A DNA stretch of 64,000 bases from Micromonospora echinofusca (GTDB lineage Bacteria; Actinomycetota; Actinomycetes; Mycobacteriales; Micromonosporaceae): positions 5,917,001 to 5,981,000 of the forward strand of contig NZ_LT607733.1 of the NCBI RefSeq assembly GCF_900091445.1, read 5' to 3'. The notes under the pieces are model-generated. The model was not told the DNA's origin and made no database searches. It saw only the letters and a program-made list of their open reading frames with translations. Positions 5,896 through 37,048 of this stretch are shown here, piece by piece (within the stretch, counting starts at the first letter, position 1; the number at the start of each line of letters is the position of its first letter). The position numbers and the translations under genes were made by a program.

Positions 5896-8800
5896 CGTCT
5901 CTCCCCAGGCTCGTCCTGATCCAGCAGGAGCGCGGCCACCTCGTCCTCGGGCAACGCGTCGACCTCGTCGACGACGAGTCGGGTGACCAGTTCCACCTGT
6001 TGCCCGACCGTCGTCGCCCCGAACAGGTCCCCCAGCGGGATGGTCACCGCGAAGAGGTCCTGGATCCGGGTACGGACCCGGGTGGCCAGCAGCGAGTTAC
6101 CGCCGATCGCGAAGAAGTCGGCATCGTGCTCGACCGCGGGGAGACCGAGCACGGCGCACCAGATCTCGGCTATCAGGTCCTCGACGGTCGCCTCGGCGGA
6201 CGCCTCCCCGGTGCGCTCGCCCTCGTCGTCGCCGGCCTCGGCGGCGATCGGCGGGAGCGCCCTCAGGTCCACCTTCCCCGCCCCGGACTTCGGCAGCTCG
6301 GCGAGGAAGACCCAGTGCCGCGGGACCATCGCCTCCGGTAGCCGTGCCCGCAGGTACGCACCGAGATCGCGCGCGTCCGGTGGGGTGGGGTCGGCGGCCA
6401 CGACGTAGCCGACAAGCTGCGCTGCGCCGCCCCGCGTGGCGGCGGTGACACTCGCCGCCCGGATCCCCGGGTGGGTGAGCAGGCACGCCTCTACCTCGGC
6501 GGGCTCGACCCGGAAGCCGTTGATCTTCACCTGACGGTCCGCCCGGCCGTGGAAGTCCAGCACCCCTTCGGCGTTCCGGCTGACCACGTCACCCGTGCGG
6601 TACATCCGGGCCCCGGGCACCGTCGAGAACGGATCCGGCAGGAAGCGCTCGGCGGTGAGCGAGGGGCGTCCGTGGTAGCCACGCGCGAGGCCGCCCCCCA
6701 GGAAGAGCTCGCCCCGGGCGCCGGGCCGCACCTGTCGCAGCTGCTCGTCGAGCACGTAGCCGACGGTGCGTCCCACCTCGGTGCCGATCGGCACGACCGC
6801 CCCGTGGGGCAGGCCGGCGGCACGCGCCTCGGTGACCTCGTAGAGGGTCGACGTGACGACGGCCTCGGTCGGCCCGTAACAGGCGATGAAGCGCGCGTCG
6901 ATGCCGAGTTCGTGCCACCGGTGCACGTCCTCGGCGTACACCACGTCCGTACCGATGTTGACCGCGCGCAGGGTATCCAGCCGGCTGTCGGCCTTCACGA
7001 CCCGGTCGAGCATGTCCCGCCACGCCATCGGCGGCAGGTCGAGGAAGGTGACCCGCGTGGCGGCGACCAGATCGGGCAGGTCGGCCGGGCTCCACCCGCC
7101 GGCGGCGGCGAGCACCAGGGTCGCGCCCGACACCAGGGTCATGCCGAGGTGTTCCATCGCGACGTCCACGAAGGGCGGACTCGTCGTCAGGATCCGGTCG
7201 GTGGCGGCCAGCCCGTACCGCAGCGCCACGTCCTCGCAGTGGGCCAGGAACGCGCCGTGTTCCACCTGCACGCCCTTGGGCTCGCCGGTGGAGCCGGACG
7301 TGTGGATGAGATATGCGAGCTGTCCGGCAAGGGCGGTGTCCGGCCGGTCTCCGGCTCCCGGGCGTCGTACCCCGCCGTCGTCCGTGGGGGCGGACGTCCG
7401 CAGGTCCTCCGGCACCAGCACCGCCGGGCCACCGGAGGGCACCGACCCGACGGCGTCCGGCGTCACCACCACGACGGCGGGGTCCATCGACGCCACGATC
7501 GACGCCAGCCGCGCTCCTGGCCCGGTGACGTCGAGCGGGGCGTGCACACCGCCGGCCGCCATCACCGCGAGCGCGGTCACGATCAGGTCCAGGCCACGGG
7601 GAAGACAGACCGCGACGGTCGACTCGGGCCCCACCCCGGCGGCGCGCAGGCGGGCCGCCGCCACGCTGACCCGCCGGGCCAACTCACCGTAGGTGAGGCG
7701 GTCGCCGCCCTGCTCCACCGCGACGGCGTCCGGCCGCGCCGCCGCCTGACGCCCGAGCAGTTCGGGCAGGGTACGGGCGGCCAGCCCACCGACGGACGCG
7801 TCCGGATCGGTGGCGACCTGCTGGAGCAGGTGTCGGTAGCGGCGGATCAGCCGTTCGATGCTCGCCGGCCGGAAGAGGTCCGTCGAGTACTCGACGAGCC
7901 CCAGGTAACCACCGTCCGGTTCCTCGCTCAGCGTGACGGTGAGGTCGTAGATCGCCGTCGGCCACGGCAACGGCAGCAGATCCAGCTGCTCCGGCAGGTC
8001 GGGAAGGTACGACGGCCGCTCCTGCCCCACCTCGAACATGATCTGGAACAGGGGGTTACGGGAGCGGTCGCGGGCGATCCGCAGGCTGTCCAGGACCCGG
8101 TCGAACGGGATGTCCTGATGCGCGTAGGCGGCCAGGGAACTCTCCCGGGTCCGCCGCAGCACGGCTCGGAAGTCGTCGCCCGGGTCCACCTCGGTACGCA
8201 GCACGAGGATGTTCGCGAAGTAGCCGATGAGCTTCTCCACCGCCGGGTTGGTCCGACCGGCGACGGGTGCGCCGACGACGATCTCCCGGGTGCCGGTCAG
8301 CTCTGCGAGCAGGCAGTTGAACGCTGCCAGGAAGGTCATGAACGGGGTGGCGCCGAGTTGCTGCCCGACCTGCACGAACGGGGCGGCGACCGGGGGCGGC
8401 ACCCGGAACACGTACAACGCGCCACGGCCCTGCCAGTGGGCGGGCCGGGGCAGGTCGGTGGGGAGTTCGGTCGCGCGTGCCCCGCGGAGCAGCCGCTGCC
8501 AGTGCTCGAGTCCACTGGCCGCCTGCGGGCCCGCCAACCAGGACGACTGCCAGGCGGCGTAGTCGGCGTACTGAACGGCCGGTGCGGCGGCCGGCCCGGG
8601 GGACGACAGTTCGGCGGCGAGGATCTGCGTCGACACGCCGTCCCAGGCGATGTGGTGCACGAGCAGGACCAGCGACTGCCGGTCGGGGCCGGAGCGGACC
8701 AGCCGGGCGCGCAGGACCGGGTCGGTGGCCAGGTCGAAGGACCGCTGGGTCAGCTCCCTGATCTGCCGGGTCACCGCGTCCGCGCCGGTGGCCTCGACGA

Positions 8801-11800
8801 GCTGGATCTCGACAGGGGCGGGCGGATCGACGACCTGGGTGAGCTGCTCGTCGACCATCTCGTAGCGGGTACGCAGGATCTCGTGCCGCTCGACCACGCG
8901 GGCGAGTGCGGCGCTCACCTCGGTGAGCGTCATCTGCGCCGGCAGCGGCACCACCACCGGCACCATCTGCTCCGGGCTGCCCGGACTCAGCTGCTCCGCC
9001 ATCCACATCCGCTGCTGTCCGGCCGACAACGGCAGCAGCCCGTTTCTGGGCAGCACCTCGATCTCGGGTGCGGCGGGTCGGTCCGCCGCGTCGGTCCCGT
9101 TGCCGGCCACCGCCGCGTCCCGGCGCAGCAGGTCGGCCTGGTCGGCGACGGTGGTGGCCTGGTACAGCTGTGCCAGCGAGACGGCCCCACCGGTACGCGT
9201 CCGCAGCCGGGCCGCCAGTTCCCCCAGTTGCAGGGAGTGTCCACCGAGCGCGAAGAAGTCGTCGTGCCTGCCCACGGTGTCGGCGGTCGCCAGTACCGTG
9301 GCCCACTCCTGCGCGACGACCTGTTCCAACTCGTCGGTGGGCAACGCCCGCTCGCCGGGCGGCAGCCCGTCCGGAACCCCGTTCAGCAGGGCAACCGCGT
9401 CGATCTTGCCACTGGACGTGGTGGGTATCGCGTCCACCCGGACGAACAGCGCGGGCAGCATCGCCTCCGGCAGGGTCCGACGCAGGTGCGCACGCAGCGC
9501 ACCGGTTTCGATGGCGGCGTCGGTGACCAGGAACGCCACGAGCTGACGCCCCCCGTCTGGACGCGGACGCCCCAGCACGACAGCCGCCCGCACCGGGGGA
9601 TGCGTCTCCAGCGCCCGCTCGACCTCGCCGGGCTCGACGCGGACACCGTTGATCTTGATCTGGTCGTCCGCCCGGCCCACGAACTCGAATTCCCCACCGG
9701 ACCGCTGCCGCGCCAGGTCACCGGTGTGGTACATCCGCGATCCGGGTGGCCCGTACGGGTCGGGCACGAACCGGGCGGCGGTCAGGTCGGGCCGCCCGAC
9801 GTACCCCCGGCCGACGTTGACGCCGCCGACGTAGAGCTGGCCGACGGCCCCCCGGGGAACCAGTTCGCCGTCCCGGCCGAGCAGGACCGCCCGCAGCCCG
9901 TCCAGCGGGCTGCCGATCGGCACCGGCCCCCGGCTCTGCTCCTGTGGCCACCGGTACGCGGTCACGTCGATCGCGCACTCGGTGGGCCCGTACGTGTTGA
10001 CGATCGTGACGTCGACCCGGTCGCGGACCTGCGCACACAACTCACCGGTGAGCGGCTCGCCGGCGCTGAACAGCAGCCGCAGCGAGGTGCAGCCGGCCCA
10101 GCCGTCCGCGGCGAGCAGCTGCCGCAGCACCGAGGGCACCACCTGGAGCACGGTCACCGCCCCCTCGGCCACCGCGCGCAGCATCACCGCCGCGTCACGT
10201 GGCGCGTCGGGCGGGGCGACGACGACGGTGCCGCCACTGATCAGCGGGCCGAACATCTCCCAGCCCGCGGCGTCGAAGGTCAGCGCCGTCTTCTGCAGCA
10301 CCCGGTCCGACGCGCCGAGCCCGAGCCGGTTGACCGGCCACCAGACCCGGTTGGCGATGCCGCCGTGGGTGACGACCACACCCTTGGGTCGCCCGGTCGA
10401 GCCGGAGGTGTACATCACGTACGCCGCGTGCCCGGCCGCGAGCCGGACCTGGGGGAACGGGACGCCGCGCGCGGATTCGTCCACCGTGAGGACCTCGACT
10501 CCGAGCTCCGCCAGGCGTCCGGCGTCGGCCGGGGCCGCGAGCAGGGTCCGTACGCCCGCGTCGGCGACGATCGTCTCGATGCGCGCCCGCGGGTGCTCGG
10601 GGTCGAGCGGGACGTAGCAGCCCCCGGCCCGCCAGACCGCCAGCAGAGCCACCACCGCGGCGGCGCCCCTCGGCAGGTGGACCCCGACCGGGGTCTCCGG
10701 CCCGACACCCCGCTCGGCCAGGCGGGCGGCCAGCGACTGCACCTGGTCCAGCAGCTCCCGGTAGGTCAGCGAGGTGCCGCCGTCCTCGACCGCCACGGCG
10801 TCCGGGGTGCGGGCGGCCTGCGCGGCGACGAGTTCGGGCAACAGCGCCGGTGGCGTCTCGGACCCGCCCGTGACTGCCGACCTGGCGGTGAGCGGCACCC
10901 GGCCCACCGCGAGCGCCGGGTCCGCCGTGAGCCGGTCCACCAGCTCGACGTACGTGGTCAGCAGGTCCGTGGCCGTCGACTCGTCGAACAGCGCGGTGGA
11001 GTATTCGAGTTCGACCCGCAGGGCGCCCTGCGCGGCCGGTACGACGTGCACGGTGAAGTCGAGCAGCGACCCCTGCGGTGTGATCGGCAGTGCGGGCCGC
11101 ACCCGGTAGGCGGTGTTCTCCTGCGTCGGCATGTTGAAGCCGACCTGGGCCAGCGGCGGCTGGCTGGGACTGTGCGTCGGGCTGGTCTCGCGCACCACCA
11201 CGGCGAACGGCACACCCTGGTGCTCCAGGGCCTCCGCCACCCGGTCACGGACCTGGGGCAGCAGCGTCTGGAAACTCTCCCGGCCGGTGACCGTGGCGCG
11301 GATCGGCACCACGTTGACCAGCATGCCGATCATCCGTTGCAGCTCGGGCCGGACCCGACCGGACACGCTGGCCCCGACGATGAGATCCGAGTCGCCGGTG
11401 TAGCGGTGCAGCAGCACGAGATAGGCCGCGAGCATCGTCATGTAGGTGGTCGCGCCGGACGCGCGGCCGACGGCGTGCAACCGGTCCACGACCGCCTTCG
11501 GGACGTCCCGGTGGATGGTCGCGCCGGAGAGGTCGCGGTGCGCCGGCCGGGGCCGGTCGGTCGGCAACGCCAGCGGGTCGGGCAGCGCCGCGAGCCGTCG
11601 GCGCCAGTAGTCCAGGTCGGCCTTCGCGCCGCCGTCGCGGATCCGGTCCCGCTGCCAGACGGCGAAGTCGAGGAAGCCGACCGGCGGTGGACTCCCCCCA
11701 CTCGCCATGTCCTCGATGACGAGGGCGAGCGACGCGGCGTCCAGGGCGATGTGGTGCGCGGCGAACAGGGCCAGCCGGCGTCCCGAGGGCGTGGTGATGA

Positions 11801-12266
11801 CCGCGGCCCGCCACAGCGGCGCCTGGTCGAGCCGGTACGGCCGGGCGGTGACGGCCAGGGCGGCGGCGAACACGCCGTCCGGACCGTCCCCGTCCGCCGC
11901 CGTCAACTCCTCCACCTCGACGGGCACCTCGGCGGCCACGGTCAGCAGCGGCCTGCCGTCGGCGCCCGCCTGGATCGCCATCCGCATCGCGTCGTGGCGC
12001 TCGACGACCCCGCGCAGCGCCCTCACGAAGCTCGCCGCGTCCGTGCCGTCGGCCATCCAGTCCGCGGCGACCACGTTGAACAGCGGCACGTCACCGGCGA
12101 TCTGGTGCAGGTGCCAGACCGCCTCCTGGGCGTACGAGAGCGGCACCGGATCGTTGCCGCGCCGGCGCGGCAGTGTCGCCGGCGCCGGCATCGGTGCGCC
12201 CACGCCGCCGCCCTTGATGATCTGGGCGAGCAACTGCCGCTGGAGCGGCGAGAGTTCGGCACTCAC
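5892..12266 (-). CDS. Nonribosomal peptide synthetase, two complete modules C-A-PCP-C-A-PCP
   Basis: 2124 residues. The reading frame is open further upstream, but the real start is GTG 12266: it lies within a GTGA overlap with the SbnB-like gene, 7 bp after AGGAGG, and the longer N-terminus is only a shadow of that gene. Domains: C1 with HHIALDA (171-177; final Gly replaced by Ala), A1 with YTSGSTGRPKG (619-629), PCP1 Ser1011, C2 with HHIAWDG (1204-1210), A2 with HTSGSTGEPKG (1655-1665), PCP2 Ser2058. My hand-aligned pocket for A1 is D-A-W-Q-F-A-T-I-D, close to glutamine codes (DAWQFGLID). For A2 it is D-V-E-D-N-G-C-V-T; two acidic residues at pocket positions 239 and 278 suggest a basic side chain such as arginine, ornithine or Dap. 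These substrate calls are inference. It sits between the Dap-synthesis gene and the Ser-activating NRPS in the same operon. Confidence 0.94.
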   Translation of the reverse strand: MSAELSPLQRQLLAQIIKGGGVGAPMPAPATLPRRRGNDPVPLSYAQEAVWHLHQIAGDVPLFNVVAADWMADGTDAASFVRALRGVVERHDAMRMAIQAGADGRPLLTVAAEVPVEVEELTAADGDGPDGVFAAALAVTARPYRLDQAPLWRAAVITTPSGRRLALFAAHHIALDAASLALVIEDMASGGSPPPVGFLDFAVWQRDRIRDGGAKADLDYWRRRLAALPDPLALPTDRPRPAHRDLSGATIHRDVPKAVVDRLHAVGRASGATTYMTMLAAYLVLLHRYTGDSDLIVGASVSGRVRPELQRMIGMLVNVVPIRATVTGRESFQTLLPQVRDRVAEALEHQGVPFAVVVRETSPTHSPSQPPLAQVGFNMPTQENTAYRVRPALPITPQGSLLDFTVHVVPAAQGALRVELEYSTALFDESTATDLLTTYVELVDRLTADPALAVGRVPLTARSAVTGGSETPPALLPELVAAQAARTPDAVAVEDGGTSLTYRELLDQVQSLAARLAERGVGPETPVGVHLPRGAAAVVALLAVWRAGGCYVPLDPEHPRARIETIVADAGVRTLLAAPADAGRLAELGVEVLTVDESARGVPFPQVRLAAGHAAYVMYTSGSTGRPKGVVVTHGGIANRVWWPVNRLGLGASDRVLQKTALTFDAAGWEMFGPLISGGTVVVAPPDAPRDAAVMLRAVAEGAVTVLQVVPSVLRQLLAADGWAGCTSLRLLFSAGEPLTGELCAQVRDRVDVTIVNTYGPTECAIDVTAYRWPQEQSRGPVPIGSPLDGLRAVLLGRDGELVPRGAVGQLYVGGVNVGRGYVGRPDLTAARFVPDPYGPPGSRMYHTGDLARQRSGGEFEFVGRADDQIKINGVRVEPGEVERALETHPPVRAAVVLGRPRPDGGRQLVAFLVTDAAIETGALRAHLRRTLPEAMLPALFVRVDAIPTTSSGKIDAVALLNGVPDGLPPGERALPTDELEQVVAQEWATVLATADTVGRHDDFFALGGHSLQLGELAARLRTRTGGAVSLAQLYQATTVADQADLLRRDAAVAGNGTDAADRPAAPEIEVLPRNGLLPLSAGQQRMWMAEQLSPGSPEQMVPVVVPLPAQMTLTEVSAALARVVERHEILRTRYEMVDEQLTQVVDPPAPVEIQLVEATGADAVTRQIRELTQRSFDLATDPVLRARLVRSGPDRQSLVLLVHHIAWDGVSTQILAAELSSPGPAAAPAVQYADYAAWQSSWLAGPQAASGLEHWQRLLRGARATELPTDLPRPAHWQGRGALYVFRVPPPVAAPFVQVGQQLGATPFMTFLAAFNCLLAELTGTREIVVGAPVAGRTNPAVEKLIGYFANILVLRTEVDPGDDFRAVLRRTRESSLAAYAHQDIPFDRVLDSLRIARDRSRNPLFQIMFEVGQERPSYLPDLPEQLDLLPLPWPTAIYDLTVTLSEEPDGGYLGLVEYSTDLFRPASIERLIRRYRHLLQQVATDPDASVGGLAARTLPELLGRQAAARPDAVAVEQGGDRLTYGELARRVSVAAARLRAAGVGPESTVAVCLPRGLDLIVTALAVMAAGGVHAPLDVTGPGARLASIVASMDPAVVVVTPDAVGSVPSGGPAVLVPEDLRTSAPTDDGGVRRPGAGDRPDTALAGQLAYLIHTSGSTGEPKGVQVEHGAFLAHCEDVALRYGLAATDRILTTSPPFVDVAMEHLGMTLVSGATLVLAAAGGWSPADLPDLVAATRVTFLDLPPMAWRDMLDRVVKADSRLDTLRAVNIGTDVVYAEDVHRWHELGIDARFIACYGPTEAVVTSTLYEVTEARAAGLPHGAVVPIGTEVGRTVGYVLDEQLRQVRPGARGELFLGGGLARGYHGRPSLTAERFLPDPFSTVPGARMYRTGDVVSRNAEGVLDFHGRADRQVKINGFRVEPAEVEACLLTHPGIRAASVTAATRGGAAQLVGYVVAADPTPPDARDLGAYLRARLPEAMVPRHWVFLAELPKSGAGKVDLRALPPIAAEAGDDEGERTGEASAEATVEDLIAEIWCAVLGLPAVEHDADFFAIGGNSLLATRVRTRIQDLFAVTIPLGDLFGATTVGQQVELVTRLVVDEVDALPEDEVAALLLDQDEPGERR

Positions 12267-13270
12267 GACAGGTCCTCCTTCGCCGGGACGAAGTTCTCGA
12301 TCCGCGCGCCGAGACCCGTGTCCCGGGCGATCCTGACGGCCAGCCCGGCCACCGCCAGGTCGAGCACACCCAGCCCGAAGGGAGAGACGACGGTGACCCG
12401 GTGCGGATCCCGCGGGGGAGTCCCCGGCCGGGCCGCGAGTTGACCGATGGTGGCGGCGATGAAGTCGTGGTGACCGACCTGTCGTGCGGCGACGTCGACC
12501 GAGGTCGCGGCGCGCAGGACGTGGTCGACGTCGTCGACCACGTTGACCGCCTCGAGGACGGCGTCGGGCAGCACGTCCCGCAGCGAGATGTGCAGCACCA
12601 GCGTGCCCGGCCGCAGCTGCCGGGTGTCCAGGTACGGCGTCAGCGCGTTGGTCGCGACACTCACCAGGGTGTTGCGGCCCAACGCCCGCCCCTGGTCCGG
12701 CTCGACGTGCACCGTGAGGGAGGGCAGCACCTCCGCGCACCGGGCCTGGAACGCGGTGGCCCGCTCCGTGTCGACGTCGTGCACCGTGACGTCGGCGAGG
12801 CCGGGGACGACCTGACTGAGGAACCGCAGCACGGCGAAGTTGATGACCCCGCAGCCCAGCAGGGTCACCCCGGCCTGGTCGCTCTCGGCGGGCAGGAGCC
12901 GGGCCGCCAGGGTGGCGCTGGCGGCCGTACGCCAGGCGGAGACCCGGGCCCCCTCGAGCAGCACCTCGGGCTGCCCGGTGCGCATCGAGTTGAGGATGAT
13001 GGCGGACGACGCCCGCGGCACCCCCTGCGTGATGTTGGCCGGGAACGACGAGATCCACTTGACCCCGGCCGTCGGTTCCGGGCCACCCAGGTAGGCCGGC
13101 AGCGCGATGATCCGGTTCCGGTCGTTCTCGGGGAACCGGAGGAACACCGAGTGCGGCAGCGCCGACCGCCCCGCCTCGTGCGCGAGATACGCCTGCTCCA
13201 CGGCGTGCAGCACCTCGGCCTCCCGGCCGTGCAGGGCCGCGCGCACGTCGGTGCTGGTGAGGATCAACAT
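12263..13270 (-). CDS. SbnB-like 2,3-diaminopropionate biosynthesis dehydrogenase (ornithine cyclodeaminase fold)
   Basis: 335 residues. ATG 13270 overlaps the stop of the LanB-like gene by 7 bp, and the end overlaps the next NRPS by 4 bp. The sequence has the ornithine cyclodeaminase/mu-crystallin architecture: GVKWISSFP around Lys71, RTAA at 114-117, and a Rossmann nucleotide site GCGVINF at 139-145. The N-terminus (LPHSVFLRFP, then RNRIIALPAYLGG) matches the SbnB/VioK subgroup rather than true ornithine cyclodeaminases. SbnB oxidatively cleaves N-(1-amino-1-carboxy-2-ethyl)glutamate, made by SbnA from O-phosphoserine and glutamate, to give L-2,3-diaminopropionate. No SbnA-like PLP enzyme is present in this window, so it should be left of base 1 or elsewhere. 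The location predicts Dap, or something derived from it, as a building block for the flanking NRPSs. Confidence 0.85.
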   Translation of the reverse strand: MLILTSTDVRAALHGREAEVLHAVEQAYLAHEAGRSALPHSVFLRFPENDRNRIIALPAYLGGPEPTAGVKWISSFPANITQGVPRASSAIILNSMRTGQPEVLLEGARVSAWRTAASATLAARLLPAESDQAGVTLLGCGVINFAVLRFLSQVVPGLADVTVHDVDTERATAFQARCAEVLPSLTVHVEPDQGRALGRNTLVSVATNALTPYLDTRQLRPGTLVLHISLRDVLPDAVLEAVNVVDDVDHVLRAATSVDVAARQVGHHDFIAATIGQLAARPGTPPRDPHRVTVVSPFGLGVLDLAVAGLAVRIARDTGLGARIENFVPAKEDLS

Positions 13271-15423
13271 GGGTTCTCCGTTCGCCCTGCGTCGGCCAGG
13301 CCGGGCAGCACCCGCGCCCTACGGTCCACCGCGACCATGCGGAACTCGCTGGTGTAACGCCGTCCTGCCGCGTCCCGCAGCCACAGCTGGTCGGGGCCGG
13401 GCAGCATCTCCTGGAGCACGACCGGTCCCCGGTCGGCCCGCCGCCAGCTGCGAGCCAGGTTCGTCACCAGCAGCGGCGCGTCACGATCGACGTAGAACGG
13501 CTTCGGTTCACCCGGCAGTTGTGCGAACAGGTGCCGTGGCAGGCCCCGCTCGGTGAGGAAGGCGCTGAGCACCTCGGGCCGGTAGCCACGGGCGCCGAGC
13601 ACCTTCGGCGGTAGGTCGTCGGCCGCGAACGCCCAGGTCGCCCGCCGGATGACCAGGTCGTCCAGGGTGATCCGCGGGCCGGGCCCGGGAATCCGGAACC
13701 GGTTGACCGTGATGGCCGAGAGGAACTCGCCGAAGAATTCGGCGACCGGCAGCTCCCACCGCCCGTCCCGGGGGCCGGCGGTGAGCCCCTCGTCGCGGTC
13801 CCGGACGACGAGTCCCGCCGCCGGCAGGACCGACACGCCGTCCGGGGCGCCCATGTCCGTGCTGTGCGCCCAGTACAGGTACCGGTCGGGCACGTGCACG
13901 GTCAGCGGCGGATACCGACGCGAGTCGATCTGCGGCCCGTACGGATAACTCGGCACGATCCGGCCACCGGCCATGTCCCGGGCCGTCAGCTCCACCAGTT
14001 GCCCGGGCTCGTCCGCGAGGGTGTGGAAGAACCGCGACTCCAGGGTGTTCATGGCGGTGTGCAGCTCACCGAGGACCCAGAGCGGCCGCCCCCCGCCCGT
14101 GGCGAGCATGAGGTCGGGACTGTGCTGCCGGGCCGCCGCCCAGCCGGGCTCGCACGGGGGGAACAGCCGGTCGACCAGCGCCTCGATGTCCTCGCTGGCC
14201 AGTTGGACCGGGTCGGTGCCGGTCGCGTCGCGCAGGATCTCCGACCACCGCAGCCGGAAGTCCTCGGCGATCTCGTCGATGAGCGTCCCGGGGGCGCCGG
14301 CCAGCACGTCCGCCGCGGCGATGTGCAGGTCGGAGAGGAGGACCGTCTCCCGCCGGTTGCGCAACTCCGCGTAGGCCTCGCACAGCCGTTCGTCCACGGC
14401 CGCCCGCACCTCACCGGTCAGCCACCGGGCCGACTGCAGGAGCAGCCCCAGCGGCTCAGCCACCTGATCGACGAGGCCGGCGGGCACCACCGCGTCGAGG
14501 TCCCGCCGGCAGTCGACGTACGCGAGGGTGCGTCCGGCCGCCGCCTCGTCCTTGGTCCGCTGGGCGGCCTGGCCGGCGAGTTCGGCGAACCGCTGTTCCA
14601 CCGCGGTCAGCACCGGGGCCAGTTGCGCCGGCTGCCGGACGAACCGCTCGGCCGCCGCGAGCTGGTCGATGAGGCCCGTCAGGTCCGCCACCGCCTGGTC
14701 GCGTGCCTCGGTCTCCGGCAGCTTCACCAGGTGGGCCAGCAGTTCCTGCTCCGGATGCGCGCCCGGTGGCAACACGAACTCGGCGACGACGATCCGGTCG
14801 GCGACCAGTCGGGCCAGGGCCAGCCGCTCGTCGGCGCTGAGCTCGGCCTCGGTGAAGCCGGCCTTGGCGAGGCGGTCCAGCAGGGCGAGCTGCGTCGGCT
14901 CCAGCGTCAGCGGCGCCTGGAACGGCCGGTGCGCCCGTCCCTCGTGGACGCTGACGCTGGGCACCCGTCGCACCGGGAGATGCGGCCGGATGGCGGGGTC
15001 CTCGGCCCACCGCTGCGCCAGGGCGCGCACCGCCCACAGTTCGAACGAGGCGCTGGTGCTGCGTACCCCCGCCGTTCCGGTCACCCTGAGCGAGTCGCCG
15101 GCCGCGCCACTGAAGGTGGCCCAGCCGACCGGGCCGAAGAAGCCGATGCTGTCGTTCTTCGCGCAGTACCGCTGGGCGTACCTGGTCAGCACCCCCGCGC
15201 GGTACGAGGTGAGCGCGGAACCGGGCCGCCGGGCCCATTCGGCCGCTGCCGGATTCTGCCAGGTGAGCGCGGCGAGGAAGTCCGGCTCGGCCAGCAGCTC
15301 ACGGACGGCGGCAAGCCCGTCCTCGGCGAAACCGGCGAGCCAGTCGAACGGCATGCCGGCAGCGCGTACCGGGGCCACCGGCCACAGCGCCCAGTCACTG
15401 GTGAGCACGACGGGTTCGTTCAC
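13264..15423 (-). CDS. LanB-like protein (lantibiotic dehydratase N-terminal domain) inside the NRPS/PKS operon
   Basis: 719 residues from GTG 15423, in a 4-bp GTGA overlap with the PKS stop; a longer upstream reading is only shadow of the PKS gene. The N-terminal third shows the lantibiotic-dehydratase signature, with RYAQRYCAKNDSIGFFGPVGW around residues 81-101. Full-length LanB enzymes such as NisB are about 990 residues, with an N-terminal glutamylation domain using glutamyl-tRNA and a C-terminal elimination domain. This protein is long enough only for the first, and I see no second domain encoded nearby. Stand-alone proteins of this type include split dehydratases and PEARL enzymes, which add amino acids from aminoacyl-tRNA. 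No candidate ribosomal precursor peptide is seen, so a carrier-bound or released NRPS peptide is a possible substrate (inference). A tRNA-dependent glutamylase, dehydratase or ligase role are the alternatives. Confidence 0.75.
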   Translation of the reverse strand: MNEPVVLTSDWALWPVAPVRAAGMPFDWLAGFAEDGLAAVRELLAEPDFLAALTWQNPAAAEWARRPGSALTSYRAGVLTRYAQRYCAKNDSIGFFGPVGWATFSGAAGDSLRVTGTAGVRSTSASFELWAVRALAQRWAEDPAIRPHLPVRRVPSVSVHEGRAHRPFQAPLTLEPTQLALLDRLAKAGFTEAELSADERLALARLVADRIVVAEFVLPPGAHPEQELLAHLVKLPETEARDQAVADLTGLIDQLAAAERFVRQPAQLAPVLTAVEQRFAELAGQAAQRTKDEAAAGRTLAYVDCRRDLDAVVPAGLVDQVAEPLGLLLQSARWLTGEVRAAVDERLCEAYAELRNRRETVLLSDLHIAAADVLAGAPGTLIDEIAEDFRLRWSEILRDATGTDPVQLASEDIEALVDRLFPPCEPGWAAARQHSPDLMLATGGGRPLWVLGELHTAMNTLESRFFHTLADEPGQLVELTARDMAGGRIVPSYPYGPQIDSRRYPPLTVHVPDRYLYWAHSTDMGAPDGVSVLPAAGLVVRDRDEGLTAGPRDGRWELPVAEFFGEFLSAITVNRFRIPGPGPRITLDDLVIRRATWAFAADDLPPKVLGARGYRPEVLSAFLTERGLPRHLFAQLPGEPKPFYVDRDAPLLVTNLARSWRRADRGPVVLQEMLPGPDQLWLRDAAGRRYTSEFRMVAVDRRARVLPGLADAGRTENPC

Positions 15424-18400
15424 CGAAGTCCCTGCTCCCGCAGCAACGTGGCCAGTGCCGCGATCGTCGGGTAGTCGAAGATCGCCCCGATCGAGAGTTC
15501 CACCTGGAACGTCTCCCGGATGGCGGAGATCAGCGCGATGGCGGTGAGCGAGTTGCCGCCGACCGAGAAGAAGTCGACGTCCATGCCGATGTCCGGGTCG
15601 CCGATCGCCTCGACCCACAGCGCCTTCATCCGGGACTCCAGGCTGTTCGCGTCGCCCGGCGCGGCGGTGGCCGCCACCGGCCCGGCCGACGCCATCCCCG
15701 CGACCGCCCCGGCCAGGGCGTCGACGACCGCGGTGGGAACTGCCGCTGCCGGGAGCTGACCGACGGCCGGACCGGTCGGACCCGGCCGTTCGGGAACTTC
15801 GCGGCTGCGCAGCGGCTGGGCTCCGCTCTCCACGAGAACCTGCCCGGGATGCCGGGCGCCGAGGATGGCCAGGGTCAACGCGACCCCCAGCCGGGGTGGG
15901 ATCCCGTCGGCCGCCTCGCTCGACCCGCCGTCAGAGGGGACGGTCACCTTCGTGCCGGGTTGGATCTGGCGCAGGGTGTACCCGGTCGCCACGCAGAGCG
16001 GCTGCCCGTCGAGCCCGAGCAACTCGAGATCCGCCCGGATCACACCCGGCCCGCTGGCCTGCCGCCGCACATGTACGAACACCTCTGCCGGCAACCGGCC
16101 GTAGAAGGCGATCGACTCGCAGCAGAACGGCAGGTGGAAGCCGTCGTCGGGCCGCCGGAACGCGGTCGACGCCGAGTCCAGCACGGTGGGGTGCGCCGGG
16201 TACACCTTCAGGTCGTCGGCGAACTCCTCGGGCAGTCGCAGCTGTACCAGCAGCTCGGAGGTGTCCTCCCCGGTCCGGGTCCAGGTGGCGACGGTGTTGT
16301 CCCACCTGCGGCCGAGGTGGAACAGCCGCGGCCCGTCGGCCTCCGACTCCATCAGCTGGTGGTTGAAGGACGAACGCAGCTCCTCGATCGGCCGGGGCCC
16401 GCCCGGCTCACCGGCCGCGACGACCCGGGCGCTGGCATGCCGTACCGCCGGGGCGCCCGGGTCGCTGCCCGAACGCGACCACGACTCCAGGGTGCCGTCG
16501 GTGTGCAGCCGGATCTCCACCCGTCGCTCGTCCTCGGTGGCGAGGACCTGGTGGTAGACCACGTCGGTGAGCCGCACCGGCAGGTCCCGCCCGGTCAGCT
16601 CGCAGTAGCCGCGCAGCATGAGGTCGAGCTGCCCGGTCCCGGGCAGGATCGCCTCGCCCTCCAGCCGGTGCTCGTCCATGATGGGGCTGAGCGCCGGGCC
16701 GATGGTGGTCGACCAGGTCCGCACCCCGTACTCGGCGGCCATCCCGACCTCCGCCCAGGACGGCCAGTTGATGGAGACCGCGGGCACCCCCGCCCGGCGC
16801 AGCGTCACGGCGTACGCGTCCTGGAAGGCGTTCGCGGCGGCGTAGTCCGCGCTGCCGACCAGCCCGTCATGGGCGGCCCGGCTGGAGAAGCAGGCGAAGA
16901 AGTCGAGTGGCGGGCCGGACCGCAACGCCTCGTCGAGCACCACCGTCCCCCGGACCTTGGGGTCGAGCACCGCCGCGACGTCGTCGAGTTCGCGCAGCCG
17001 CACCAGGCCGTCGCCAGGCAGCCCGGCCAGATGGAAGACCCCGTTGACCGGCCCGAACCTGGACACCGTGACGTCGAGGGCCCGGCGCAGTCCCCGGCGG
17101 TCGGCGACGTCGCCGGTCAGGACGCGGACCTGTGCGCCCAGCCCGGTGATCTCCGCGAGCTGGGCGCGCAGGCGCTCGGAGCGTTCGTCCGTCGCGTCGT
17201 CGTTCAGGCCGGTGCGGCTCAGCAGGATCAGCCGTGGTTGCAGCCCGGTGCCGGCGAGACCGCGCGCCAGCGCCATGCCGAGTCCGCCGGTGCCACCCGT
17301 GATCAGGTAGACCCCCTGCCGCCGCAGCGGCGACGGCGACTCCCACGGCGCCGCGTCGAATGCCACCTGGGTCGGCACCCAACGCCGCGTACCGCGCAGC
17401 GCGACGACCTCGTGCCGCCGCCACTGTCCCAGCTCGCACGCGAGCTCGTGGTCGGCGGGCAGGGCCACGTCCACCACCCGGCAGCCCAGCTCGGGCGCCT
17501 CCTTCGCCAGCGAACGGGCGAAACCGACGAGCATCGCGGCGGTCGGGTCGATCGGCTCGGCGCCCGTGACGTCGACCGCTCCCCGGGTGAGCACCAGCAG
17601 CCCCGCCGTGCCGCCCGCCGGCAGGGCGGCGACCGTCTGGGCGGTGACGAAGAGGCTGGTGAAGCCGGCCTCCACGGCCCGGTTCACGCCCGCGCTGGTC
17701 AACGCCGGGTCGGACCCGGCGGTGAAGGCGTGCACCACGAGCGTGACCGGTGTCCCCCGGCCGGCCAGCGCGGCCAGCACCCGGTCCAGGTCGACCCGGG
17801 AGCCGGGGCGGATCCGGAATTCCGCGCCCACCTCGGCGTACGCGTCCGCCGGCCGGGCGACCGTCACGGCGGCGCCGGCCTGCTGCACCGCCAGTACGAC
17901 GGGAAGGCTGTCCGCCTCGGACGCCGGCGCCAGGAGCAGGCACAGCCCCGACACGGTGCTCTTCGGCAGCGCCTGCGTCTCGGTCCACACCACGGTGGAC
18001 AGTGGTGTCCCGGCCTCGGTCGGCTCACCGCTGACCGGGAGGGCCGCCTCGACCGCCGGGACAGCCGCCACCGCCGGCGGCGTCGTCTGCGCCGGTGCGT
18101 CCACCCAGTGCCGGCGCCGCTGGTAGGGGTAGCCCGGCAGCGGCACCCGTCGTACCGGGCCGCCGTCGTCCGGCTCGGGCCACTCGACGTCGTGTCCGTC
18201 GACCCAGAGTCGCGCCACCACCGCCAGCAGCCCGGCGAGGTCCGTGTCGGTCCGCGGCAGGGCCGGCGTGAACGAGGAGCCCGGTCCCCCGGTTCCCCTG
18301 CCGAGATCGCTGAGCACCCGGCCCGGCCCGACCTCGAGCACGCGACGTGGTCCGTCGCCGAGCACGGCGGCCACCGCCCGGTCGTACCGGACGACGCCGG

Positions 18401-20696
18401 CCACCTGGTCGGCCCAGAAGTTGGGGTCGACAGCCTGGTCCTCGCCGATCAGACCGCCGGCGGCCGCGGAGTAGAACGGGATCGTCGGCGCCGACAGCTC
18501 GACTCCGTCGAACGCGGCGGCGAACTGCACCGCGGCCGGGATCATCAACGGGCTGTGGAAGGCGCCCGCGGTCGGCAGGACCTTGGCCAGGATCTTGCGG
18601 CTCTGCAGCTCGGACTGCGCGGCGAGCACGTCGTCGCGGCTGCCGCTGAGGACGACCTGTCGGGGTTCGTTCACCACGGCCACCGTCAGGCCGGCCAGCA
18701 GGTCGGAGGAGAGTTCCTCCAGGGGAGCGGCCACCGCCAGCATCGCACCCGTCGTGACGGCGGACATGGCGCGGGCCCGCGCCGCCACCAGGGCGACCCC
18801 GTCGGCCAGCGAGAACACCCCGGCCGTCACGGCGGCGGCCAACTCGCCGACGCTGTGCCCGAGCACCGCCCCGGGACGCACCCCCCGGGCCCGCAGGGAC
18901 CGCACCAACGCGCACTCGACGGCGAAGAGCGCCGCCTGGGTCACGACGGTGCCGGCCAGCCGGTCCGGGTCGCCCGAGAGCCAGTCCTCCCGAACGTCGA
19001 TTCCGTGCGCCCCGAACAGATCGAGCACCTCGTCCATGGCCTCGGCGAAGGCCTTGTCCTCGCGGTAGAGACGGTGTCCCATTCCCGCCCGCTGGGAGCC
19101 CTGACCGGGGAAGGCGAAGACCAGGTCCCGCCGCTCCGCACCGGCTCCCCGCAGCACGCCGTCGTCAGCGGCGAGTCGCGCGGCGGCCACCGCCGGGTCG
19201 TCCGCGACGACCGCGGAGCGCAGGGGGTACGGCCGGCGGCCGTGCTGCAGGGTACGCACCGCCGCGGGGAACGTCTGCGGGTCGTGGTCGGTGAAGTACC
19301 GGGCCAGGTTCTCCTGGTACTGCCGGCCGGCGGCCTCGCTCTGCGCCGACCAGACCACGATCCGGGGTTGTGACCGCACCGGCTGCGGTACGCGCGCCGG
19401 AGGCTCCTCGATGACCACGTGGGCGTTCGTGCCCCCCACGCCGAAGGAGCTGACCCCGCCGACCAGGGGCACTCCGGGGGCCCGGGTCAGCGGCGTGAGC
19501 CGGTCGGCGATGACGAACGGCGTCGAGTCCAGGTGCAGCTTGGGGTTCGCCTCCTGGAAGTTCACCGTGCCCGGGAGAGCACCGTGCCGGAGGGCGAGGA
19601 CGCCCTTGATCAGCGAGGCGATACCCGCCGCGTGACCGAGATGTCCGATGCTCGACTTGACCGAACCGAGCGCGACTGTGGTCCCGGCGTCGTCACCCAC
19701 CGCCTGCAGTGCGCGATGCAGCGCCGCCACCTCGATCGGGTCCCCGAGTGGGGTGCCGGTGGCGTGACACTCGACGAACGCCAGTTCACTCGCGGACACC
19801 TCGGCCATGGCGAACGCCTCGGCCAGCATCGTCGCCTGGCCGATGACGGAGGGGGCGGTGAAACCGGCCTTCGCCGATCCGTCGTTGTTGAGCGCGGTGC
19901 CCCGCAGGACGGCGTGCACGGTGTCGCCGTCGGCGAGCGCGTCACTGAGTCGCTTGAGCACCACGGCGCCCGCGCCGGTGGAGAAGAGCGTGCCGTCGGC
20001 CTTGCCGTCGAAGGGTCGCACGTGGCCGTCGCGGGAGAAGGGGCTGCCCTGGGCCCACAGATAGCCGTGCCCGAACGGCATCTCCACCTCGGCGCCACCG
20101 GCGACAGCCAGGTCACACTCCCCGTTGCGCAGCGCCTGGCTGGCCAGGTGCACGGCGACCAGGGAACTCGAACAGGCCGTGGAGACGGAGATCGCCGCCC
20201 CCCGCAGGTTCATCTTGTACGCGGCGGTGATCGCGACGTAGTCGGTGTTGTTCAGGGAGGTCAGCGCGAAGCTCGTGCTGGCCGAGGCGTCACTGTTAAG
20301 GCCCAGGTTGTCGACGTACCGGTTGGTGCCGGCGGAGCCGTAGACCGCGATGGTCGCCTCTTCGCGGTACGGGTCGTAGCCGGAGTGCTCCAGCGCCGCG
20401 TGTGCGCTCTCCAGGAACATCCGGATCTGCGGGTCGGTGAAGTCGGCTTCCTTCGGGGTGTAGCCGAAGAGCGCCGAGTCGAAGTCCTGGACCCCCGGGG
20501 CGGTGGCCACCGCCTTGACGTAGTCCGGGTGCCGCAGCATCTCCTCCGAGACCCCGTACGCGCGCAGTTCGTCGTCCGTGGGGAACTGGACGCTCTCCAC
20601 CCCGTCACGCAGGTTGGCCCAGTACTGGTCGAGATCCGCCGCTCCCGGGAATCGGGCAGCCATCCCGACGATCGCGATGTGGTGCCGGTCGCTCAT
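15420..20696 (-). CDS. Type I polyketide synthase module, KS-AT-KR-DH-ACP
   Basis: 1758 residues from ATG 20696, in an ATGA overlap with the upstream NRPS. The ketosynthase has Cys175, His311 (HATGTPLGDP) and His352. The acyltransferase has GHSVG with Ser615 and a GAFH motif at 711-714, which predicts malonyl-CoA. The ketoreductase has TGGTGGLG at 1133-1140 and a YAAAN motif with Tyr1285; the usual LDD fingerprint reads PGD. A dehydratase follows, with the hot-dog signature H-x3-G-x4-P starting at His1343 and Asp1507 in HPTVLDS. The carrier domain ends the protein with GGNS, Ser1716. KR before DH reverses the usual DH-KR order, so the DH is downstream of the reductase. Predicted outcome: one malonate extension of the upstream dipeptidyl chain, reduced and dehydrated to an alkene if both domains work. 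The next condensation domain is in the NRPS starting at 12266. Confidence 0.94.
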   Translation of the reverse strand: MSDRHHIAIVGMAARFPGAADLDQYWANLRDGVESVQFPTDDELRAYGVSEEMLRHPDYVKAVATAPGVQDFDSALFGYTPKEADFTDPQIRMFLESAHAALEHSGYDPYREEATIAVYGSAGTNRYVDNLGLNSDASASTSFALTSLNNTDYVAITAAYKMNLRGAAISVSTACSSSLVAVHLASQALRNGECDLAVAGGAEVEMPFGHGYLWAQGSPFSRDGHVRPFDGKADGTLFSTGAGAVVLKRLSDALADGDTVHAVLRGTALNNDGSAKAGFTAPSVIGQATMLAEAFAMAEVSASELAFVECHATGTPLGDPIEVAALHRALQAVGDDAGTTVALGSVKSSIGHLGHAAGIASLIKGVLALRHGALPGTVNFQEANPKLHLDSTPFVIADRLTPLTRAPGVPLVGGVSSFGVGGTNAHVVIEEPPARVPQPVRSQPRIVVWSAQSEAAGRQYQENLARYFTDHDPQTFPAAVRTLQHGRRPYPLRSAVVADDPAVAAARLAADDGVLRGAGAERRDLVFAFPGQGSQRAGMGHRLYREDKAFAEAMDEVLDLFGAHGIDVREDWLSGDPDRLAGTVVTQAALFAVECALVRSLRARGVRPGAVLGHSVGELAAAVTAGVFSLADGVALVAARARAMSAVTTGAMLAVAAPLEELSSDLLAGLTVAVVNEPRQVVLSGSRDDVLAAQSELQSRKILAKVLPTAGAFHSPLMIPAAVQFAAAFDGVELSAPTIPFYSAAAGGLIGEDQAVDPNFWADQVAGVVRYDRAVAAVLGDGPRRVLEVGPGRVLSDLGRGTGGPGSSFTPALPRTDTDLAGLLAVVARLWVDGHDVEWPEPDDGGPVRRVPLPGYPYQRRRHWVDAPAQTTPPAVAAVPAVEAALPVSGEPTEAGTPLSTVVWTETQALPKSTVSGLCLLLAPASEADSLPVVLAVQQAGAAVTVARPADAYAEVGAEFRIRPGSRVDLDRVLAALAGRGTPVTLVVHAFTAGSDPALTSAGVNRAVEAGFTSLFVTAQTVAALPAGGTAGLLVLTRGAVDVTGAEPIDPTAAMLVGFARSLAKEAPELGCRVVDVALPADHELACELGQWRRHEVVALRGTRRWVPTQVAFDAAPWESPSPLRRQGVYLITGGTGGLGMALARGLAGTGLQPRLILLSRTGLNDDATDERSERLRAQLAEITGLGAQVRVLTGDVADRRGLRRALDVTVSRFGPVNGVFHLAGLPGDGLVRLRELDDVAAVLDPKVRGTVVLDEALRSGPPLDFFACFSSRAAHDGLVGSADYAAANAFQDAYAVTLRRAGVPAVSINWPSWAEVGMAAEYGVRTWSTTIGPALSPIMDEHRLEGEAILPGTGQLDLMLRGYCELTGRDLPVRLTDVVYHQVLATEDERRVEIRLHTDGTLESWSRSGSDPGAPAVRHASARVVAAGEPGGPRPIEELRSSFNHQLMESEADGPRLFHLGRRWDNTVATWTRTGEDTSELLVQLRLPEEFADDLKVYPAHPTVLDSASTAFRRPDDGFHLPFCCESIAFYGRLPAEVFVHVRRQASGPGVIRADLELLGLDGQPLCVATGYTLRQIQPGTKVTVPSDGGSSEAADGIPPRLGVALTLAILGARHPGQVLVESGAQPLRSREVPERPGPTGPAVGQLPAAAVPTAVVDALAGAVAGMASAGPVAATAAPGDANSLESRMKALWVEAIGDPDIGMDVDFFSVGGNSLTAIALISAIRETFQVELSIGAIFDYPTIAALATLLREQGLR

Positions 20697-23600
20697 GACA
20701 TGTCCCTTCGCAATGTCTCGCGTATCCGCAGCCGGCGCGCGGAGTCCAGGGAGACTGGTCGCCTGACGGAACGGACCTCGACCGCTGTCTCCTGCTCGCC
20801 CGCGACATACGCGGCGAGCGATCGAACCGTCGGAAGTTCGAAGAGTTTGAGCACCGGCACGGGGCGTCCGAGGCGCTCCTCCAGTGCCTGCTGTACGCCG
20901 ATCGCCAGCAGCGAGGTGCCACCGAGGTCGAAGAAGTTGACCTCGCGGCCGACCTGCGCGACGCCCAGCACGTCCTGCCAGGTGCGGGCGATCGTCTCCT
21001 CGACAGCCGTGGCGTAGACCGGGGCGGCGGTCTCCTCCGAGGCTCCGTCGACGCCCGGCCGCCACGCCGGCAGGCGGGTCCGGTCCGGCTTGCCGTTGGC
21101 CGTCAACGGCAGGTGGTGCAACCGCACCACTCCCGCCGGCAGCATGTGCGCCGGCAGCAGGATGCGCAGGTCCGCTCGCAGCTGGGCGGTGGACACGGCC
21201 TGGCCGTCCACGGAGGTGAGATAGCTGACCAGGCGTGCCTCGTCACCCGAGCCGACCAGCACGGTGACGCAGTCGGTCACGTACGACAGGCTCCGGGCCG
21301 CCACGTCCACGTCCTGGAGCTCGACCCGGTATCCGGCGATCTTGACCTGGCCGTCGTCCCGGCCGAGCACCTCGATCATGCCGTCCGGCAGCGTCCGTCC
21401 CAGGTCGCCGGTGTGGTATTCCGGACCGCACCCGTCGGCGAGCGCCTCGCCCCGTACCACGATGCGACCGCGCTCCCCCACCGCGGCGGGGCGGCCGTGC
21501 CCGCCCAGCACGACGACGCCGCCGCCGTGGATGCCGGTGTCGACCGGTATCCGGCGATCCGGTCGACCCACCGGCTGACCCGGCCGGATCGCCGACCAGG
21601 CCGCGACCTGCGGGGTTTCGGTGGCCCCGTAGGCGTTGACCACCGTCACCCCCGGGGCCGACCGTCGGATGGCGGTGACGTCGCCGGCGAAGAGCTGGTC
21701 GCCCGCGACGACGGCGAGCCGCAGGTGCGGCAGCGGCAGGTCCGCGACCAGGAGCAGCCGCAGCAGCTGCGGCGTCAGGTGGACGACGGTGACGCGCTCC
21801 CGGACGAGCCAGGCGTGCAGCTCGTGTGGGGAGCGGATCACCTCCTCGGGCGGTACGCAGAGCGTCGCACCGACGGTCAGCGGCGCGAAGACGTCCCGCA
21901 GCAACGGGTCGTGGCCGAGACCGGAGAGCAGGGCGAACCGGTCGGCCGGCCCGAGGCCGAACTCCGCGGTGTAGCGGGCCAGGAAGTGGGCCAGCGGTGC
22001 GTCGCCAGCCCGCACGACGCGCGGTCTGCCCGTCGTGCCCGAGGTGAAACCCACGTGACCGGCCGGGCCGGCCACCGGGGAGAACTGGCCACCGCCCCGG
22101 ACCGGACCGACCTGGATCACGGTCGGCGCGATCGCGGCGAGAGCGGACGGCAGATCACCGTCGACGAGGACGGCTCGGGCCTGCGCGATCTCGCGGAGTT
22201 GCGCCACCAGCCGGGCGGGCGGATATCCAGGGTCCAGCACGCAGAACCGCGCGCCGATCGACGAGACGGCCAGCAGCGCCGCGACCAGTGCGACGCCGCG
22301 CGGCGCGAACACCGCCACGAGGTCTCGACGGTGTACCTCGCCGAGCGACAGGTCCTGGGCGATGGCGCTGACCCAGTCGCCGAGCTCGCGGTAGGTGAGC
22401 GTGCCGCCGGACGCGCTCAGGGCCGTCGCCTCCGGCGCGCGCTGCGACTGCTCCGCGAAGCGGGTGCTGACCACGACCTTCTCGGCGTGGTCCAGCTTCG
22501 GGGTCAGGGGCGCGGCAGGTGCCGGCGCGCCGCCACCGACGCCCAGGACCTGCCGGTCGAACGGCATCTCGGGGTCGGTCGACATCGCCGACAGGATCTC
22601 GATGAACTGGTCGAGCAGTTCCGCGCCGAGGCGGGGCTCGATCGTCGCCCGGTCGTGCACGACGGTCACCGCGATCCGGTCACCGAGGTCGGTGAGGTAG
22701 ACGTTCAGGTCGAAGATCGCCCCCGCCGGGTCCTGGTCGACGACGCGGGTGGTGAGGCCGGGCAGCTCCGGGGGGATGTCCGGGCCGCCGAGGAAGTTGA
22801 ACCAGGAGGTGAAGGACAGGTCCGTCCCGCGCCTGCGCAGATGGTGGTGCAGCACCTCGAAGGGCACGTCCGCGTTGGCGGCCGCGTGCGCGACCGCCGC
22901 TCTCGCCGCGCGGATCAGGTCCGCGTACGACGGCGCCTCGGGCACGGTCACCCGCAGCGCGGCGGTGCTGACGAAGAACCCCACGAGCGATTCCGTGCCC
23001 GGCACGGTACGGGCACCGAACGGTGCCCCGATCAGGGCCTCGTCCTGCCCGCTCCACCGGCGCAGCAGGCCGGCGTAGGCGGCCAGCAGCGTCACGAACA
23101 TGGTGCTGCGGTACTCGGTCGCCAGCTCCCTGAGCTCGGCCGTCCGGTCCGCGTCGAGGTGCCGGCGATGGGTGACCGTCCCGGGCACGGCGTCGGCCGG
23201 GGCCGGGAAGCGCTCCGCCGGGACGCAGCCGTCCAGCCGATCGACGAGTTCGGCGAGCTGCCCCTCGTAGGCTCCGGCCGCGAAGCGGCGAGCCTGCCAG
23301 GCGCTGTAGTCGAGATAGGTCAACGAGCCCGGTGGATCGGCCGGTGGAGGGTCTGCGGCAACGGCGGCCCGGTAGTGCCGGCCGAGGTCGTCGAGGATGA
23401 TCCGGACGCTCTGCCCGTCGGCGACGAGATGATGCAGGGTGAGCACCAGCCGGGAGTCCGCGCCGGGCAGCCGGACCAGGGCGGCCCGCAGCATCGGCGG
23501 CCGGGCCAGGTCGAACGGACGCCGGATCTCGGCGTTGATCCACTCCTCGGCCTCCTGCGGACCGGCCACCTCGACCTGGCGCAACGGCGGTGTGGCCAGG

Positions 23601-26601: not shown

Positions 26602-26972
26602 CAACGCCACCGGAGAACGTTGGCGAGAAGTCGTCACCACCTTGACCAGCCCAGACGGATCACATCATCCCGACGCACGCCTGAAGCGAACCCAGTGGCC
26701 CCGGCCTGGCGGTCCAGCGGTCCAGCGGTGAAGGACGGATGCCGGACCTCAGCGCCGACGGAGGCGCTGCGCGCGCTGACCCGGCCTTGTCTCGTCATGG
26801 CGTTCGGGGCGGATCTCATCACGCCCCCGCAGAGCGGACGTGACGTCGAAGAGACCGACTGGAAGGCTGGCCGCGCTGGTCTTAGGCTGTCGCGGCGCTG
26901 GTCTCAGGCCGTCGCCGCGCGCAGGCAGACGGCTCCGCCCGGGGCGCAGCCCATACGATCAGGGGAAGAACC
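26602..26972. other. Divergent intergenic region of the biosynthetic cluster
   Basis: About 370 bp between the leftward carbamoyltransferase/NRPS operon and the rightward PRMT-like gene. It must carry promoters for both directions. I see no convincing -35/-10 pair or inverted repeat, and no ORF with coding-like composition of its own. AGGGGAAG lies 5 bp before the ATG at 26973 as a ribosome binding site. Confidence 0.5.
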
Positions 26973-36816: not shown

Positions 36817-36840
36817 GCCGGGCGACTCGCCGTTGAACTG

Positions 36841-37048
36841 GCTTTCGATGGCCGTACCTCCACGTGCCGGCCCATCGCTGGGCAGTCCCGGTGGAACACT
36901 CTAGACCCGGCGGGGACCCGCCCCGCCGCGACATTCTCCTGTTCGCCGAGCCTAGGCCGCCGTGACCACCGCCCGCAGCCCGGACAGACGCGAGGGTGTT
37001 TCGCATTGCCTCCCAGACAGTTAGCGTGCACACGTGGCCATCGAAAGC
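36841..37048. promoter_or_regulatory. Divergent intergenic region bounded by a 13-bp inverted repeat
   Basis: GCTTTCGATGGCC at 36841-36853 and its exact reverse complement at 37036-37048 lie at the 5' ends of the two divergent genes (MFS-tmk leftward, the PLP enzyme rightward). Each copy would encode Ala-Ile-Glu-Ser in the outward direction. The roughly 180 bp between must hold both promoters. Whether the repeat is an operator, a remnant of a duplicated 5' end, or coincidence cannot be decided from one sequence. Confidence 0.45.

Follow-up and report, generated by a model that had tools for sequence, protein, structure and literature searches.

A PEARL-like gene in an NRPS/PKS cluster of Micromonospora echinofusca that lacks the SnaE-type ureido signature

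SnaE, encoded in the threopeptin (sna) cluster of Stackebrandtia nassauensis, a cluster of nonribosomal peptide synthetase (NRPS) and polyketide synthase (PKS) genes, is required for the addition of Thr to a ureido-dipeptide/PKS product, and its free carboxylate originates from a ureido-forming condensation (C) domain with the signature EHHXXHDG (Yu and van der Donk, 2024; PMC11212132). About two thousand NRPS/PKS clusters encode enzymes that, like SnaE, are annotated as lantibiotic dehydratase (PMC11212132). In the present work we analysed a gene of this appearance, here called PEARL1 for its likeness to peptide aminoacyl-tRNA ligases (PEARLs), in a window of 64,000 nucleotides of Micromonospora echinofusca, corresponding to positions 5917001-5981000 of the contig NZ_LT607733.1 in a 7.0-Mb single-contig genome. 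Since SnaE has been published (PMC11212132), the general idea behind this finding is already known, and the presence of PEARL-like enzymes in NRPS/PKS clusters is not new. What is new is that the cluster extends to the left of the window with a second PEARL-like gene (PEARL2), a second PKS (PKS2), an oxidoreductase, SbnA, MbtH, a thioesterase and transporters; that a near-collinear cluster with two PEARLs recurs in Micromonospora HK10 and in Hamadaea; and that the SnaE-type ureido signature is absent from the genome and from those of three relatives with close clusters, with a carbamoyltransferase gene and genes for 2,3-diaminopropionate (Dap) alongside.

The PEARL1 gene and its active-site residues

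PEARL1 lies on the minus strand at positions 13264..15423 of the window and starts with GTG. The initial annotation had described it as a 719-residue protein with a lantibiotic dehydratase N-terminal domain, overlapping a PKS gene by 4 bp and a Dap-synthesis gene by 7 bp, lacking the elimination domain and accompanied by no precursor peptide, and our analysis bears out these points. In fact, translation of the minus strand gives an uninterrupted frame of 719 aa, the plus-strand reading contains an internal stop, and the GC content by codon position (0.77/0.52/0.91) is of the coding type. Pfam matched PF04738 (Lant_dehydr_N) alone, with 62.9 bits over residues 46-337. The start at 15423 lies 4 bp inside PKS1, whose stop codon ends at 15420, and the end at 13264 overlaps by 7 bp the SbnB gene starting at 13270. 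The elimination domain PF14028 was found neither in PEARL1 nor in the cluster, the only matches in the genome being near 6.93 Mb, about 1 Mb away. Inspection by eye of the two gaps longer than 30 bp within the cluster, including sequence to the left of the window, and of the gap at its right revealed no precursor-like small frame (frames that overlap the large genes lay outside this inspection); the large left gap is occupied by the MbtH and type II thioesterase genes. Among 7,995 candidates scored, 723 were homologues of PEARL1 at E<=0.001, which, together with the conserved gene order described below, places this gene far beyond chance. PEARL1 is a genuine and conserved gene, and its type has been recognised only recently. 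Its predicted fold is that of the LanB glutamylation domain, as in TbtB, NisB and MibB.

Published work on BhaB7 and TglB assigns the binding of ATP, Mg and the carboxylate to BhaB7 residues D558, E575, H577, R715, F755, K763, E813 and R815, and contacts to the tRNA 3'-CCA end to Y205 and R208 among others, R197, Q201 and R429 being also named (PMC11962472, PMC12945691). In PEARL1, D437, E453, H455, R594, F633, K641, E693 and R695 reproduce the ATP/Mg/carboxylate residue types with near-identical spacing (mapped by spacing, BhaB7 itself not being aligned). By the same measure, Y82 and R85 correspond to BhaB7 Y205 and R208, and the remaining named contacts R197, Q201 and R429 are unmapped. In an alignment of 96 PEARL-like relatives (A2), the ATP/phosphorylation-site residues of PEARL1 are invariant or almost so; as for the 3'-CCA residues, R85 is present in 96 of 96 and Y82 in 85 of 96.

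As a control, 20 full-length LanBs with PF14028 were brought into a profile alignment (672 columns, hhalign probability 99.5). R20, Y82, R85 and E693 are conserved in all 20 of these proteins. D437, E453, H455, R594 and R695 each occur in 96/96 of the PEARL-like set and in 0/20 of the full-length LanBs; F633 is found in two of the 20, and K641 falls there in an unaligned stretch. A stricter control shortens this list: the split thiopeptide-type LanB of the host genome keeps R594, F633 and K641, which are thus non-discriminating, and TbtB and GodF have R and K at the equivalents of R594 and K641 in the aligned stretches, a trait common to split LanBs. In the same host split LanB, D437, E453 and H455 are replaced by A, H and Y, with 693 and 695 outside the alignment (hhalign probability 95.9). 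Because this protein keeps R594, F633 and K641, the discriminating residues are D437, E453 and H455, plus R695 with respect to the full-length LanBs, and on sequence grounds these four carry the argument for a PEARL. The split-LanB RiPP-type locus at contig positions 6928001-6946000 (L094; RiPP, ribosomally synthesised and post-translationally modified peptide) contains a frame with the PF04738 glutamylation domain, and PF14028 matches in other frames. The A2 profile gave no hmmsearch match there at E<=10, yet hhalign to its sequence aligns.

Proposed reaction, carboxylate source and rival readings

PEARL1 is very probably an amide ligase of the PEARL type that depends on ATP and aminoacyl-tRNA and acts on a product or intermediate of the NRPS/PKS line. 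The case is directly established as regards predicted fold, residues, gene neighbourhood and conservation; we infer the chemistry by analogy with TglB, BhaB7 and SnaE. In the proposed reaction, a free carboxylate of the assembly-line molecule would be phosphorylated by ATP, the acyl phosphate would be attacked by the amino group of an aminoacyl-tRNA, and hydrolysis of the tRNA ester would yield a molecule one amino acid longer; PEARL1 and PEARL2 would each add one residue. The initial annotation had suggested that aminoacyl-tRNA might serve to glutamylate, dehydrate or extend a nonribosomal peptide. Extension is favoured by the PEARL ATP-site residues, the NRPS/PKS context and the SnaE precedent (PMC11212132), whereas the dehydratase/glutamylation reading was rejected because PEARL1 has ATP-site residues that full-length LanBs lack and because its cluster contains no elimination domain. 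The suggested link between tRNA chemistry and an assembly line holds as an idea but not as a novelty, having been published in 2024 (PMC11212132).

The signature EHHxxHDG, sought as a DNA pattern with all codons allowed, had 0 matches in the whole host genome and none in the genomes of Micromonospora HK10, Hamadaea Bin2.24 and Planotetraspora (the scan did not extend to Hamadaea Bin8.36). In NRPS1, the first NRPS of the cluster, the C motif is LHHLVADG; in the three relatives it is LHHLISDG, LHHLVSDA and MHHIVSDG, respectively, and the other C motifs found in the host cluster also differ from the ureido signature. A scan of genomes found 361 relatives, from which 79 loci were kept; as 13 of these are shorter than 15 kb and flanks never exceed 10 kb, all locus counts are lower bounds. 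Within these flanks, the signature occurs in two loci (L071 and L085). A pattern scan of 31 of the genomes behind the 79 loci recovered these known positives and gave 20 places in 15 genomes, as compared to 1 in the backward control (matches at the DNA level may be out of frame). At the three further places followed up, L176, L177 and L178 (genomes of L021, L054 and L025, respectively), the motif stands in a long frame, and no PEARL was found in the stretches fetched around them; L176 and L177 are on contigs whose lengths differ from those of the PEARL contigs, and L178 is about 4 Mb from the PEARL on the same chromosome. In other genomes, a ureido C domain may thus lie farther than 10 kb from a PEARL. 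Among 120 relatives listed, a condensation-type HHxxxDG motif is present in 14 and EHHxxHDG in none.

The absence of the signature from the genome and the three relatives means that either the acceptor carboxylate arises otherwise or the signature rule is incomplete. As judged by these motifs, it does not come from a recognised ureido-forming C domain. Its likeliest source, although we hold this only tentatively, would be the C-terminus of a chain released by the thioesterase (TE). A less likely source would be a residue such as Dap that is linked via its side chain and keeps its alpha-carboxylate free, and an improbable one would be ureido chemistry by an unrecognised route. Dap is presumably made by SbnA and SbnB, and the carbamoyltransferase may supply a ureido amino acid, for instance beta-ureidoalanine. 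Gene pairs of the carbamoyltransferase/Dap type are found in the viomycin and zwittermicin pathways.

Three other readings of PEARL1 were considered. A LanB-type glutamyl transferase would esterify Ser/Thr hydroxyls of the nonribosomal peptide with Glu from Glu-tRNA, elimination being carried out by another enzyme or by none. The fold common to TbtB, NisB and MibB, the tRNA-contacting residues common to PEARL1 and LanB, and the occurrence of R594 and K641 in split LanB domains agree with such an activity; however, D437, E453, H455 and R695 are missing from every full-length LanB compared, the first three are replaced in the host split LanB as well, PF14028 is unmatched within about 1 Mb, and the gaps examined contain no precursor peptide, so that we consider this reading very unlikely indeed. 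PEARL1 might instead work exactly as SnaE, extending a carboxylate freed through chain reversal by a ureido-forming C domain. The layout is that of the sna cluster, namely an NRPS with adenylation (A), thiolation (T) and C domains in the order A-T-C-A-T, one PKS module and a PEARL (PMC11212132), and at L071 an A-T-C(urea)-A-T-PEARL arrangement is found in a single chain. Against this stand the missing signature in the host and in the three scanned relatives, the NRPS1 motifs given above, and the presence of EHHxxHDG in only two of the 79 loci, with flanks of at most 10 kb. Chain reversal is weakened by these results, and we regard it as unlikely.

An equally unlikely reading is that of an off-loading device, in which the amine of the aminoacyl-tRNA would directly aminolyse a thioester on a neighbouring carrier domain and no free carboxylate would be needed. 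C-A-T proteins that terminate in a PEARL domain do exist, the third PEARL-like domain of the host genome being one such case, and a PKS gene is directly upstream in 10 of the 13 assessable members of the PEARL1 clade. However, the cluster comes with a terminal TE and a type II TE of its own, and the invariant ATP-site residues would be left without a role.

Relatives and surrounding cluster

A, C or ketosynthase (KS) domains are present in 74 of the 79 loci, and at least two PEARL genes within 22 kb in 21. Beyond these 21, the six loci L015/L068, L016/L030 and L017/L058 appear to be the halves of three clusters with two PEARLs each; L016 and L030 come from different contigs of a single assembly, so that their pairing is presumed. 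SbnA or SbnB at >=33% identity is found in 14/79 loci, and a carbamoyltransferase at least 45% identical to that of the window in 8/79, which hints at a repeated carbamoyl-PEARL partnership. Carbamoyltransferases 51-64% identical to that of the window are near PEARL genes at L036, L041, L045, L048, L052, L053, L059 and L060, in Actinomycetota and Acidobacteriota. Three tandem PEARL-like genes stand beside NRPS/PKS genes in Streptosporangium minutum (L070, 9788-16646), the sole locus with three.

The closest clusters are conserved to different extents. Micromonospora HK10 has counterparts, 59-70% identical, of PEARL1, SbnB, SbnA, the LLM-class oxidoreductase and PEARL2, as well as of the carbamoyltransferase, which there too immediately precedes NRPS1 (contig matched by its length), and its NRPS and PKS genes follow the order seen in the host; no first ABC pair turned up in the HK10 stretches (this comparison did not include MbtH or the type II thioesterase). 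In Hamadaea, two assemblies contain parts of the cluster as far as their contigs reach, and Planotetraspora keeps the carbamoyltransferase-NRPS1-PKS1-PEARL1 block, the contig match being deduced from position in both cases. A sample of 36 further genomes from the genus contained no close PEARL1 orthologue (best 45% identity), therefore PEARL1 is sporadic in that sample. Its clade comprises 15 loci besides the window, the placement of the long-branched L043 being unsure. A PKS gene ends directly before the PEARL in 10/13 of the clade loci, not in L023, L026 and L028 (two further loci are cut at the contig end).

PEARL2, at about 5904124-5906300 of the contig (start approximated by the beginning of the family match), belongs to the same cluster, about 24 kb from PEARL1, with which it shares 35% identity. 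In a quick tree the two fall in separate groups with SH-aLRT support of 99 and 100, and therefore they do not result from a recent duplication. The third PEARL-like domain of the host genome (contig 2202217-2204298; L095:6220-11715, minus strand) forms the C-terminal end of a 1832-aa C-A-T NRPS frame, and its nearest neighbour in the tree is L071, the single chain with the ureido signature. In P0125, P0133, P0136 and others, a condensation domain (mostly FHHALLDG) is fused to a PEARL domain, neither an A nor a T domain being listed in the intervening stretch (Pfam-checked for P0125).

The cluster genes of the window are transcribed on the minus strand in the order carbamoyltransferase, NRPS1, PKS1, PEARL1, SbnB, NRPS2, NRPS3. 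The carbamoyltransferase (25639..26640) is of the OTC/ATC family, under the cut-off for ornithine carbamoyltransferase, and is located upstream of NRPS1 in related clusters too. NRPS1 (20693..25669) is A-T-C-A-T; PKS1 (15420..20696, starting at an ATG that overlaps the NRPS1 stop) has, according to Pfam, one KS-AT-KR-DH-T module, with acyltransferase (AT), ketoreductase (KR) and dehydratase (DH) domains. SbnB (12263..13270, 335 aa) matches TIGR03944 over the cut-off, with 373 bits. NRPS2 (5892..12266) is C-A-T-C-A-T, and NRPS3, C-A-T-C-A-T-TE, occupies 1..5895 of the window and ends 1520 bases to its left. SbnA, PKS2 and the second PF04738 protein are found 3-13 kb from the window edge, on a left side that also includes a first ABC ATPase and permease pair, the LLM-class oxidoreductase, MbtH with the type II thioesterase in the large gap, and a second ABC ATPase and permease pair; SbnA, on the plus strand, matches TIGR03945 with 254 bits, under the cut-off. 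A possible tailoring methyltransferase is encoded on the plus strand at 26889..28070 (weak Methyltransf_23 match, under the cut-off), and homologues about 60% identical to it adjoin PEARL genes in L038 and L086. Elsewhere in the window, the minus-strand frame 34636-36900 combines an MFS-type transporter and a dTMP kinase (TIGR00041 177.6 bits, over the cut-off).

Significance and comparison with known systems

The sole characterised NRPS-associated PEARL found in our literature searches is explained by chain reversal. Since the signature is missing here and, within 10 kb, in 77 of the 79 sampled relatives, the question arises of where the free carboxylate originates and how two ligases share one line. 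We tentatively propose, at somewhat less than even chances, a conserved NRPS/PKS pathway family in which two different tRNA-dependent ligases would add amino acids of the ribosomal pool to carboxylates that do not derive from ureido chain reversal. If so, PEARLs would serve assembly lines in general as a second machinery for amide formation, in this case coupled to Dap/carbamoyl chemistry. The results support reading "lantibiotic dehydratase" annotations in NRPS/PKS clusters as amide ligases, in which case product predictions from modules alone would miss residues.

TbtB belongs to a dehydration system for RiPPs in which elimination is left to a separate partner. The residue comparison with this thiomuracin glutamylation domain (PDB 6ec7, 6ec8) covered the equivalents of R594 and K641 but not the columns of D437, E453, H455 and R695. 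Class I lanthipeptide dehydratases have PF14028 in the protein or alongside, which is not the case of PEARL1. The RiPP PEARLs TglB, AmmB and BhaB have the ATP-site and part of the tRNA 3'-CCA residue types and spacing in common with PEARL1, and they extend a ribosomal carrier peptide (PMC11962472, PMC12945691), whereas none was found by eye in the gaps of the host cluster. SnaE is like PEARL1 in its annotation as lantibiotic dehydratase, in having no precursor peptide, and in being accompanied by an A-T-C-A-T NRPS and a one-module PKS (PMC11212132). The sna cluster as described has one PEARL and a ureido-forming C domain, the signature of which has no match in the host genome (a comparison of the clusters, not of the SnaE sequence). 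In the broad sense, PEARL1 belongs with SnaE, as a PEARL-like enzyme of an NRPS/PKS cluster in which no precursor peptide is seen, and its cluster type departs from the studied case in three respects: it has a second PEARL, it shows no C domain with the ureido signature, and it includes Dap and carbamoyltransferase genes.
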